A stretch of DNA of 40,239 nucleotides from Fidelibacterota bacterium. GTDB lineage: Bacteria; Pseudomonadota; Alphaproteobacteria; Rhodospirillales; Rhodospirillaceae. The notes under the pieces are model-generated. The model searched no databases. It was not told the DNA's origin and worked only from the letters and a program-made list of their open reading frames with translations. The stretch lies in the NCBI GenBank assembly GCA_945903705.1, contig CAMDOZ010000011.1, positions 1-40,239 of the forward strand, read 5' to 3'. The position numbers and the translations under genes are program-made. This document shows, in pieces, positions 5,012-7,527 of this stretch (within the stretch, counting starts at the first letter, position 1; every line of letters begins with the position of its first letter).

Positions 5012-5731
5012 ATGTCGAACGCATTTATCCGTAGACTCGATAGTGTAGAACGCCTCACGAAGGTGGAACGTCAGGCGATTGCCGAGGCCACCAAGAACGT
5101 CCAGAAAGTCGGGGCTCGCCGCGCAATCTTGCGCGAAGGGGACCGCAACGGTGGCGCGCACATCATTCTTTCAGGCCTGGCCTGCCGGTACCGCATCCTT
5201 GAAGACGGCAGTCGGCAGATCACCGACTTCCTCGTGCCCGGCGATCTTTGTGGATGCGACTATATCGCCGGCGCCGACACGGGCTACAGCCTCGCAGCGT
5301 TGTCGCCGTGCAGCTTCACGCACATCGATCACCAATCCTTGACCGTGCTCATGGACCGTCATCCGCGCATCGCCCGCGCGCTGTGGTCCCTCGCGCTCAT
5401 CAATGAAGGTGTTTTGCGCGAATGGCTGGCCAATGTCGGCCGCAGGCCCGCCGTGCGTCGCGTGGCTTACCTGATGTCGGAGCTCTGCTTCCGTCTGCTG
5501 GCCTCTGAATCGCCGCGACCGAGCAGTTGCGCTCTGCCGCTTACGCAAATCGACCTTGCGGATGCCACGGCGCTTTCACCCGTGCATATCAATCGCGTGC
5601 TCGGCCGCCTGCGCGAAAAACGCTTCGTCAGCTTGCAGCGGCGTTCCATCATCGTGAAAGACACCGAAGGCCTTATGTCCTTCGCCGAATTCTCTGGCAA
5701 CTACATCCAGCCCCGCGCGCACGACGCCTAG
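5012..5731 (+). CDS. Crp/Fnr-family transcriptional regulator
   Basis: The 239-residue protein has an N-terminal cyclic-nucleotide-binding-like beta barrel (residues about 25-125, with GDRNGGAHIILSG and DFLVPGDLCG), a long dimerisation helix, and a C-terminal winged helix-turn-helix (about 175-215, with recognition helix ALSPVHINRVLGRLREK). The N-terminal four-cysteine cluster of oxygen-sensing Fnr is missing, so an iron-sulphur sensor is unlikely. The effector is unknown, and the barrel lacks an obvious RxS cAMP-binding signature. It lies 228 bp upstream of the PEP-CTERM gene on the same strand and could regulate it or itself, but no FNR-like half-site pair (TTGAT-N4-ATCAA) is visible nearby. 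Confidence 0.85.
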   Translation: MSNAFIRRLDSVERLTKVERQAIAEATKNVQKVGARRAILREGDRNGGAHIILSGLACRYRILEDGSRQITDFLVPGDLCGCDYIAGADTGYSLAALSPCSFTHIDHQSLTVLMDRHPRIARALWSLALINEGVLREWLANVGRRPAVRRVAYLMSELCFRLLASESPRPSSCALPLTQIDLADATALSPVHINRVLGRLREKRFVSLQRRSIIVKDTEGLMSFAEFSGNYIQPRAHDA

Positions 5732-5875
5732 ACGTCGCGTCAAGCGTTCCACAACCGTTCATCGTACATGCGGATTGGCGCCTCGCGCCGAGGTTCGCGC
5801 GGCATTTTACAGCTGCCATTTTTTTGCCGCAGAACGTGCAGTCTAGCGCGTTGATTTCCCTCACTTCGGCGGCAG

Positions 5876-5891
5876 TGGCACGGCTGTTGCA
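5876..5891 (+). promoter_or_regulatory. sigma-54 (-24/-12) promoter of the PEP-CTERM gene
   Basis: The sequence TGGCACG-gctg-TTGCA matches the RpoN consensus TGGCACG-N4-TTGC(A/T) at every defined base. The GG of the -24 element is at 5877-5878 and the GC of the -12 element at 5889-5890. Transcription would start near 5902, leaving a leader of about 58 nt before the ATG at 5960. RpoN-dependent promoters in front of PEP-CTERM genes, activated by the PrsK/PrsR pair, are known from Zoogloea. No activator-binding dyad was identified upstream, so the activator is open. Confidence 0.8.
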
Positions 5892-5959
5892 CGCCTCATA
5901 GGCACTCGCTCAGAAAAACAACGGCCGGGAACGCGGCCATAACAATTGAGAGAGAACAG

Positions 5960-6628
5960 ATGATCGCGAAGATACTGCCCGCTACAACTCTGGCTATTGC
6001 GTTGCTGTTTGGCCTTTCGGCCGCGCCGGCGCAGGCCGCATTGATTCTTGGAAGTCACGTAGAGGGCTCGCTGTTCTTGGGCGCGATCGCGCCGAACACG
6101 GACGGTTGGAGCTACTTCGGCGAAGACCTTGGTCCGCCAAGTCCGTTCTGGGTCGGCGGCCGTCTCGAAGTGAAGCAGCGATCCTCGTCGTACCTGAACA
6201 CCTTCGGCATCTCGGACACGTCCCACACCAATCGCACGGAAATTTTTGGCGGATCGGCGGGTGCGGGTGCGGTCTTCAATCTCGCAGAAAGCGCCTCGGA
6301 GCGACTGTTCTATTTCTCGGCCAACGGCACGGACATCCTACTCGCCTCGGACGACAACCGTCAGTACACCGACGGCTTCTCGAGCGGCGGAACGCCCGGC
6401 AGGCTTCAGGGTGGAATGGACATTTTCTACCACGCAGATTCCAAGGCCTGGGCCTTCTTCTTCGATGATGACGGTGGCGGAATTCCTGTTCTTGGCGACG
6501 ACGACGATTACGACGATCTTATCGTGACGTTTCGTCAGAACCCGGTGCCGGAGCCCGGCGGCCTCGCGCTCCTCGGTGTCGCTCTCCTTGGCCTTGCAGG
6601 CATGATGCGGCGTAGGAAGTCCGCCTGA
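5960..6628 (+). CDS. PEP-CTERM sorting-domain protein, DUF4114-like
   Basis: This is a secreted protein of 222 residues. It has a Sec signal peptide (hydrophobic core LAIALLFGLS, cleavage likely after PAQA at residue 26) and a C-terminal sorting signal: VPEP (196-199), a hydrophobic helix (GLALLGVALLGLAGMM) and an RRRK tail. Such proteins are processed by an exosortase (XrtA type) and are often tied to exopolysaccharide or floc formation. The region before the sorting signal (FFFDDDGGG and DDDDYDDLIVTF) resembles the Asp-rich end of DUF4114 and could bind calcium. A clear ribosome-binding site (gagagaac) precedes the ATG. No exosortase gene lies in this window. Confidence 0.88.
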   Translation: MIAKILPATTLAIALLFGLSAAPAQAALILGSHVEGSLFLGAIAPNTDGWSYFGEDLGPPSPFWVGGRLEVKQRSSSYLNTFGISDTSHTNRTEIFGGSAGAGAVFNLAESASERLFYFSANGTDILLASDDNRQYTDGFSSGGTPGRLQGGMDIFYHADSKAWAFFFDDDGGGIPVLGDDDDYDDLIVTFRQNPVPEPGGLALLGVALLGLAGMMRRRKSA

Positions 6629-6645
6629 CCGCAGCAGGAGCGTGC

Positions 6646-6784
6646 GCAAATGAAAACGGCAGCCGGCGGGCCGTGATCAGCAAAAGTGGAAGCCGGTTTT
6701 GCGCCCGAGCGCGGCCCGATTCAATAAAAAGAGGGTTTGATCCGATAACGTCGGATCAAACCCTTGGCTGCCGTTTTCATTTGC
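6646..6784. repeat. composite double-hairpin intergenic repeat, copy 2, with 19-bp terminal inverted repeat
   Basis: The element lies between two convergent genes. Its ends form a perfect 19-bp inverted repeat, gcaaatgaaaacggcagcc at 6646-6664 and its complement at 6766-6784. Inside are hairpin A (gggccg 6668-6673 with cggccc 6712-6717, enclosing gcaaaa/ttttgc) and hairpin B, a perfect 14-bp stem (6732-6745 with 6751-6764) and a 5-nt loop. Hairpin A's core matches copy 1. The position between convergent genes would suit a bidirectional transcription stop, although T-runs are short. Confidence 0.8.
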
Positions 6785-6798
6785 CTGAGGTGCGAGAC

Positions 6799-7527
6799 TC
6801 AACCTGGAAAATCGAGGCGCTGCCAGCCGTCGGGGCCTAAGCACTCGAGCGGTTGGAACCGCGCCTTGTACGCCATCTTGGCGCTATTGGTGATCCAGTA
6901 GCCGAGGTACGCATAAGGAAGCTCCAACCTGCGGGCCTGTTCGATCAACCAAAGGACGACATAGTTGCCGAGTCCTTCGCGCATGCCGTTGGACTCGAAG
7001 AAACTGTAGACCGCGGATAGCCCGTCCGACGTGCGGTCTGTGAGACACACGGCGGTGAGCACGCTCGCGCGGTCGCGGAACTCCACCATGAATGTATCGA
7101 TGGGGCTGTCTTCAACCATCGCGCTATATTCGTAAAATCCCATGAGCGCCATATCGCTGCCGGGATGGCGCGACTGCTGATAGCGCGCGAACAGCTCGTA
7201 CTGTTCGGTGGTGGCCCGGGCCGGAACGCGGGTCGGAATCAGATCGGCATTCTCTCGCCACAGGCGTGAAAGGCTGCGGCGGCGCTCAAACTCTCTGACC
7301 ACCACACGTACCGGAACACAAGCCTTGCAGCCCGGGCAGGCCGGCGCGTAGGCGATCGAATGGCTGCGGCGGAAACCGGAGCGGGCAAGCGCTTCATGCA
7401 GGTTTTCGGCGCCTGGTCCTGACAGTTCGGTGACGAGCTTACGCTCCAACCGGTCGGGGAGGTACGGACACGGCAGGGGTGCCGTGGTGAAGAAAAATTG
7501 CGGCCGTTTTAGAGGTGTATGGTCCAT
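6799..7527 (-). CDS. bpt: aspartate/glutamate leucyltransferase (Bpt, N-degron pathway)
   Basis: Bpt transfers leucine from leucyl-tRNA to proteins with N-terminal Asp or Glu, marking them for ClpS/ClpAP degradation in the cytoplasm. The 242-residue protein shows the N-terminal cysteine region (FFFTTAPLPCPYL), the CPGCKACVPVRV block, and the acyltransferase core with SAVYSFF and LGYWITNSAKMAYKARFQP near the C-terminus, all typical of the ATE/Bpt family. The length fits Bpt, while eukaryote-type Ate1 arginyltransferases are longer. It stands 104 bp downstream of the motB-like gene on the same strand, and its stop faces the copy 2 repeat. Confidence 0.93.
   Translation of the reverse strand: MDHTPLKRPQFFFTTAPLPCPYLPDRLERKLVTELSGPGAENLHEALARSGFRRSHSIAYAPACPGCKACVPVRVVVREFERRRSLSRLWRENADLIPTRVPARATTEQYELFARYQQSRHPGSDMALMGFYEYSAMVEDSPIDTFMVEFRDRASVLTAVCLTDRTSDGLSAVYSFFESNGMREGLGNYVVLWLIEQARRLELPYAYLGYWITNSAKMAYKARFQPLECLGPDGWQRLDFPG

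Follow-up and report, generated by a model that had tools for sequence, protein, structure and literature searches.

Sigma-54 promoter and candidate PrsR-type activator box upstream of a single PEP-CTERM gene in an alphaproteobacterial draft genome

Aquincola and Zoogloea are both Betaproteobacteria. For Aquincola tertiaricarbonis RN12, PMC9850573 describes RpoN1 dependence of pepA and a -24/-12 promoter, using RT-PCR, primer extension and an rpoN1 mutant. Control of PEP-CTERM genes by RpoN together with PrsK-PrsR in Zoogloea resiniphila, and the loss of flocs in prsK and prsR mutants, are recounted in PMC9012009. Haft et al. (2006; PMC1569441) reported that 99 of 167 proteobacterial PEP-CTERM genes are preceded by a sigma-54 box and an activator box. 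There, motif 1 comprises 17 bases ending in TTTACA and lies a mean of 62.8 nt (32–92) before motif 2, which itself precedes the start by a mean of 71 nt (SD 38.5, range 23–221). The same text lists the alphaproteobacterium R. rubrum with EpsH, PrsK, PrsR and PrsT.

We analyzed a window of 40,239 nucleotides, which is the entire contig C11 of a 3.41 Mb draft genome (240 contigs, 93% complete); its features are collected in the table. The order of a TTTACA box, a sigma-54 box and a single PEP-CTERM gene is the same as in the PrsK/PrsR system (TIGR02915/TIGR02916) described by Haft et al., and the spacings of 64 and 68 bp in the window fall inside the ranges of 32–92 and 23–221 given there (PMC1569441). 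Unlike that system, the draft has no PrsK, PrsR or exosortase that we could find, and its activator box is a weak match. Another alphaproteobacterial PEP-CTERM gene, Rru_A3095 of R. rubrum, has boxes as in the window, although R. rubrum differs from the window genome in that it has just one PEP-CTERM gene, with motif 1 repeated (PMC1569441). In the accounts of Aquincola and Zoogloea, a PEP-CTERM gene is under sigma-54, as we propose for the window, whose protein is not PepA. The region is a sound example of a control system described in 2006 and not a new system. An earlier note on this DNA had suggested a sigma-54-driven PEP-CTERM regulon; the substance of that suggestion holds, but the idea is not new, since the 2006 survey already includes R. 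rubrum (PMC1569441).

Features of the window discussed in the text, with the basis for each assignment
Feature	Position	Strand	Basis
Crp/Fnr-family regulator gene, upstream neighbor	5012..5731	+	PF13545 and PF00027 over cut-off
Candidate activator (PrsR-type) site, Haft motif 1, TCGCGCGGCATTTTACA	5795..5811	+	ends TTTACA; motif score
Sigma-54 -24/-12 promoter, TGGCACGGCTGTTGCA	5876..5891	+	motif match, position, family enrichment
Predicted transcription start (+1)	5902	+	deduced from -12 GC at 5889-5890
PEP-CTERM protein gene, 222 aa	5960..6628	+	profile searches, homologues
Signal peptide, residues 1-26, MIAKILPATTLAIALLFGLSAAPAQA	5960..6037	+	peptide and cleavage site judged by eye
PEP-CTERM sorting tail, VPEPGGLALLGVALLGLAGMMRRRK	6545..6619	+	TIGR02595, 25.9 bits (cut-off 16)
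ntrC-like sigma-54 activator gene, cut by contig end	39363..40239	+	partial PrsR-model match below cut-off; neighbors, by eye

The consensus of sigma-54 -24/-12 promoters is TGGCACG-N4-TTGCW. On the + strand of the window, positions 5876-5891 read TGGCACGGCTGTTGCA (TGGCACG-GCTG-TTGCA), which agrees with this consensus at every specified position, as the earlier note had claimed. From the end of the site to the ATG at 5960 we counted 68 bp; the promoter is indeed upstream of the gene, at one base less than the 69 bp given previously. Placing -12 at the last C of TTGC gives the same start, about 5902, that the note had predicted. A genome-wide scan for TGGCACG-N4-TTGC, the pattern named in the note, returned seven exact copies in the 3.41 Mb assembly, against three for the backward pattern, and because this excess is only about twofold a lone perfect match is weak evidence. 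Two of the seven copies precede PEP-CTERM genes (C11, the window, at 68 bp; C4 at 62 bp), and a third is immediately upstream of an XrtA-linked femAB gene (C28). The remaining copies at C4:50254, C32 and C222 overlap coding-scoring frames, and the one on C124 does not. By simple arithmetic, using about eight 200-bp target windows and 6.8 Mb of strand, approximately 0.002 such coincidences would be expected. Unlike the match alone, the position of the motif is strong evidence. A related sequence, TGGCATG-N4-TTGCA, occurs at G000:C51:19880-19895 (L050), in front of a gene for a putative porin of the TorF family (TIGR02001).

Enrichment of the promoter at other PEP-CTERM genes was the test that the earlier note had named beforehand, and enrichment is what we found. 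A search for TIGR02595 tails in 73 family genomes (own genome included) yielded 83 places in 22 genomes. Start codons were placed by a simple rule, and upstream DNA was scored with an approximate sigma-54 weight matrix. Nineteen of the 83 places were dropped (no start, contig end, little upstream DNA, short, non-ATG or no hydrophobic leader). With a threshold that was set after the scores were seen, a score of at least 14.5 within 200 bp before the start, a sigma-54 site was present in 50 of the 64 testable PEP-CTERM genes (19 genomes) compared to 3 of 211 control genes from the same fetched regions, while shuffled regions reached the threshold in 8 of 3200 cases. The other 14 PEP-CTERM genes fell below it, two of them narrowly. 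One of the three passing controls, L147, is a listed PEP-CTERM gene that the filter had missed, and L156 and L162 have PEP-CTERM-like tails by eye; therefore, no clearly unrelated gene passed. L156 (from 1227, + strand) and L162 (from 1633, + strand) each have a strong sigma-54 site, end in tails beginning PVPGPDS and GEPPSA, respectively, and are absent from the TIGR02595 list. The distance between motif 2 and the ATG in the family averages 57 bp (SD 16).

We also searched 398 genomes drawn from the phylum for an exact two-box pattern with a gap of 36–66. This gave 20 matches in 18 genomes, with one for the backward control. Two of the 20 belong to our own genome, both at PEP-CTERM genes, and a further three, outside it, precede PEP-CTERM tails (gaps of 53, 62 and 62). 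The same test detected no PEP-CTERM tail downstream of the other 15.

Within our own genome, three of six testable PEP-CTERM genes (on C11, C4 and C126) passed the promoter threshold; the sites on C10 and C110 are marginal (11.8 and 11.7) and C57 has none (3.2). A PEP-CTERM gene on C92 that lacks its 5′ part was left out of the six. The C4 gene has both boxes upstream. On C126 no activator box is convincing (score -3.2), and the sole exact TTTACA is 118 bp away. The gene at C28:665-1696 encodes a FemAB family protein of the XrtA/PEP-CTERM system (TIGR03019, 314.2 bits, cut-off 260.35). Its activator box, TGTCAGAATTTTTTACA, is the strongest among the sites examined in this genome and is separated from the femAB promoter, TGGCACGGGCGTTGCA, by a gap of 76 bp. 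At G000:C28:665-1764 (L037), femAB adjoins a gene that looks groEL-like by eye.

The 17-base activator consensus derived from the PEP-CTERM sigma-54 sites of the family is TGTCGGAATTCTTTACA. Among the 6-mers that precede the 50 family sites, TTTACA is the most frequent, occurring within 130 bp in 37 of them. In the window, TTTACA is found at 5806-5811, 64 bp upstream of the sigma-54 site (published range 32–92). The box as a whole has a leave-one-genome-out score of 6.4, compared to 15–25 for strong boxes; among 20000 random stretches of 130 bases, drawn from the fetched DNA of the same genome, 1.5% reach this score. Judged from its sequence, the activator box of the window is weaker than most. 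It is overlapped by a weak terminator-like hairpin at 5799-5816, a 5-pair stem followed by a T run.

The distances between the two motifs are not spread evenly in the family. For this comparison we kept those best boxes whose leave-one-genome-out score is at least 1.4 (46 of 50), a cut chosen after the list was seen. Their distances are 40–41, 50–53 and 62–66, then 74, 83, 86, 94 and 101, and none of the 46 lies at 42–49 or 54–61. The classes near 40, 52, 64, 84 and 94 bp are about one helical turn apart, and the window, at 64 bp, falls in the commonest class. The four boxes left out are at 64, 55, 10 and 5, with exact TTTACA also at 15, 32 and 118. When each distance is counted once per genome, the 26 remaining values have a mean vector length of 0.72 at a period of 10.5 bp, which was set by DNA geometry, a length reached by 0 of 20000 smoothed resamples; fitted to the family set alone, the best period is 11.4–12 bp.

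An outside set of nine boxes consisted of our own femAB box, two Vibrio plasmid boxes and six hand-picked boxes (TGTC/CGTC-type) from the phylum draw, which gave only three PEP-CTERM cases outside our own genome for an independent test of the classes. These nine show the same phase (0.67, p ∼0.013). Those six of the nine that belong to PEP-CTERM genes, to femAB or, in one case, to an uncharacterized gene within the Vibrio XrtA locus give 0.62 (p ∼0.09), and two of the nine (43 and 43) are just off the family classes; all of these geometry statistics are limited by paralogous promoters and by hand picking. A plasmid stretch of Vibrio alfacsensis with a prsR-like gene has two clear boxes, with gaps of 72 and 92, and stretches with prsR-like genes from Nitratidesulfovibrio and from Photobacterium plasmids contain no box with motif 1. 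The spacing suggests that PrsR and the polymerase may need a fixed face of the DNA. Such classes go unmentioned in the available text of Haft et al. (2006; PMC1569441), which gives the mean and range, and a literature search on PrsR/PEP-CTERM spacing found no other paper naming PrsR. Distance classes separated by helical turns are possibly new.

The product of the window gene has the features of a PEP-CTERM substrate, with the C-terminal PEP triad, hydrophobic stretch and Arg cluster recognized by profile and the leader by eye. Its tail also exceeds the cut-off of a second model, PF07589 (22.2 bits, cut-off 20.7), and the description of the gene in the earlier note as encoding a PEP-CTERM secreted protein is borne out. 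Homologues in the same genus are 52% (G048) and 43% (G057) identical. Against the PepA model NF033554 the protein scores 31.3 bits, under the cut-off of 80, and therefore is not PepA. The standard model for the system comes from floc-forming bacteria, and by analogy with them the protein probably serves in the matrix or in aggregation. Between the stop of the crp-type gene and the ATG at 5960 there are 228 nt of non-coding DNA, where the published criterion is more than 200 nt.

Downstream of the PEP-CTERM gene is an arginyltransferase gene. By its identity, the nearest named relatives of the window are L218 (93%, ‘Candidatus Marinimicrobia’) and L219 (91%, ‘Rhodospirillaceae bacterium isolate SJ625’), both metagenome genomes; beyond these, many relatives are labeled Rhodospirillaceae. 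Only one of 80 fetched arginyltransferase-neighbor loci, L219, carries a PEP-CTERM tail. There, L219:3540-4231 is a syntenic remnant of the window gene that retains about the last 50 codons and has lost the signal peptide and the promoter. Because many of the 80 loci are incomplete, local conservation is unusable as evidence. A repeat element occupies 6629-6798, between the PEP-CTERM gene and the arginyltransferase gene. It contains nested perfect inverted repeats (6646-6664/6766-6784 and 6732-6745/6751-6764) and has a very stable predicted fold (z -8.7), and related pieces occur in three other fetched loci of the same genome (L029, L061 and L070).

The genome encodes sigma-54 itself, with rpoN matching TIGR02395 at 435.9 bits (cut-off 277.35). 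In profile searches of the 93% complete, 240-contig draft, neither PrsR nor PrsK was found over cut-off, and there was no PF09721 or TIGR04178 match for an exosortase. In the sister genome G048, a TIGR03013-prsK-prsR-prsT cluster, all four over cut-off, lies beside a PEP-CTERM gene, with exosortase pieces on other contigs than the prs genes. Thus, the search for prsK, prsR and xrtA homologues that the earlier note had proposed came out empty in the draft itself and positive for all three in the sister. Within the genus, PrsR is present in G057 as well as G048, and an exosortase in G058 as well as G048. Together, the family enrichment, the rpoN gene and the prsK-prsR-prsT cluster of the sister uphold the claim of sigma-54 control in this alphaproteobacterial lineage.

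The C92 gene bears on the absence of prsKR from the draft. From residue 43 on it is 82% identical to the prs-adjacent PEP-CTERM gene of G048, and the two share an IHF/HU-like neighbor (93%). Upstream of C92:11737 (L035) there is an opposite-strand open frame with no similarity to the G048 stretch and no Pfam match. Synteny breaks inside the PEP-CTERM gene, on the side of the prs operon in G048; we favor a chimeric join over a real rearrangement, though both would look alike. Because C92 breaks where the prs operon would follow, the absence of prsKR from the draft says little. We infer that PrsK/PrsR and an exosortase exist in the organism.

Of the 22 family genomes that carry PEP-CTERM tails, 14 have no match to the exosortase models PF09721 and TIGR04178. 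They include G057 (100% complete) and G043 (99%), each of which has PrsR, as well as G010 (99%, 11 tail matches). It is doubtful, if conceivable, that part of the family has a PrsR/sigma-54 PEP-CTERM regulon without a recognized exosortase, with another enzyme sorting the tails. For our own genome, assembly gaps are the simpler reading of the missing exosortase. Conversely, in ten family genomes PF09721 is matched but TIGR02595 detects no tail at the threshold applied.

We assign a probability of about 0.88 to the whole of our best explanation, that the window gene forms a transcription unit of one PEP-CTERM gene belonging to the known PrsR/sigma-54 regulon; counted against it were the weak window box overlapping a hairpin, the passing of only three of six own genes, the 14 of 64 family genes below the threshold, and the missing PrsR, PrsK and exosortase. 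In this model, sigma-54 RNA polymerase would wait at the promoter. PrsR, an NtrC-type protein phosphorylated under the control of the membrane kinase PrsK, would bind the TTTACA-ending box at approximately 5795-5811, reach the polymerase by looping of the DNA and open the promoter using ATP, and the transcript would begin near the predicted +1. The protein would then be secreted via its signal peptide, with the C-terminal tail anchoring it in the membrane. According to the standard model, an exosortase would process it for the extracellular polysaccharide layer. Both the binding of the boxes and a role in aggregation or matrix are presumed here.

One challenge to this model concerns the TTTACA at 5806-5811, which might be merely part of a terminator of the crp-type gene, with the promoter regulated otherwise or from elsewhere. 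The stem and T run at 5799-5816 suit such a role, as does the poor fit of the remainder of the 17-base box. However, TTTACA sits at the commonest family distance, a score as high as that of the box has only a ∼1.5% chance in random DNA of the genome, and terminator and activator-box roles can coexist, so we regard this reading as unlikely. That the -24/-12 motif is a chance look-alike, and the gene transcribed from a sigma-70-type promoter, is highly improbable. Exact copies are only about twice as frequent as the backward control, and three of seven overlap coding-scoring frames, but position, spacing, the paired activator box and the enrichment at PEP-CTERM genes all argue against coincidence. 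A simple scan of 5600-6850 for sigma-70-like promoters found none, which says little because shuffles average only 0.2.

A genuine sigma-54 promoter could also be driven by NtrC, NtrX, FlbD or a DctD-like regulator, in a regulon that this species has rewired away from PrsR. These four, named by their neighbors and by eye, are the proteins of the assembly with long matches to the PrsR model, none of them over the PrsR cut-off (NtrX is split over two contigs), and the weakness of the window's activator box would fit such a change. Against it, the activator box of the femAB gene in the same genome is still almost perfect, although one would expect such a box to erode once its activator was gone; PrsR is present in the same-genus G048 and G057; and a gap is the simple reading of C92 leaving the G048 synteny where the prs operon would follow. 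We consider rewiring quite improbable and retain control by PrsR. The ntrC-like gene at the contig end represents another sigma-54 input in the genome and is not expected to activate the promoter at 5876-5891; it is preceded by a dus-like gene and an ntrB-like kinase gene (names by eye). A pair on C49 had the best PrsR score of the genome, 364.5 bits, under the cut-off of 502.6. By eye it looks like DctB/DctD and was rejected as PrsK/PrsR.

Other inputs in the gap between the crp-type gene and the PEP-CTERM gene were also considered. One FNR-type palindrome with up to two mismatches occurs there (5851-5864), and was rejected with 13 such sites in the window against 7.4 expected. An IHF site at 5844-5856 (one mismatch) is of a kind that is too common, with 30 in the window against 17.5 expected. 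The Crp/Fnr neighbor is kept at 84% identity in L219/G048, beside the PEP-CTERM remnant that has no promoter. The suggestion in the earlier note that this regulator may add a second input gained no positive evidence, because the gap contains no conspicuous binding site.

Taken together, these findings indicate that in this uncultured lineage the PEP-CTERM regulon has the same wiring as that of floc-forming bacteria; the XrtA-linked femAB gene is an added member of that regulon in this genome. If the distance classes are true, they would provide a simple handle on how PrsR touches the polymerase.
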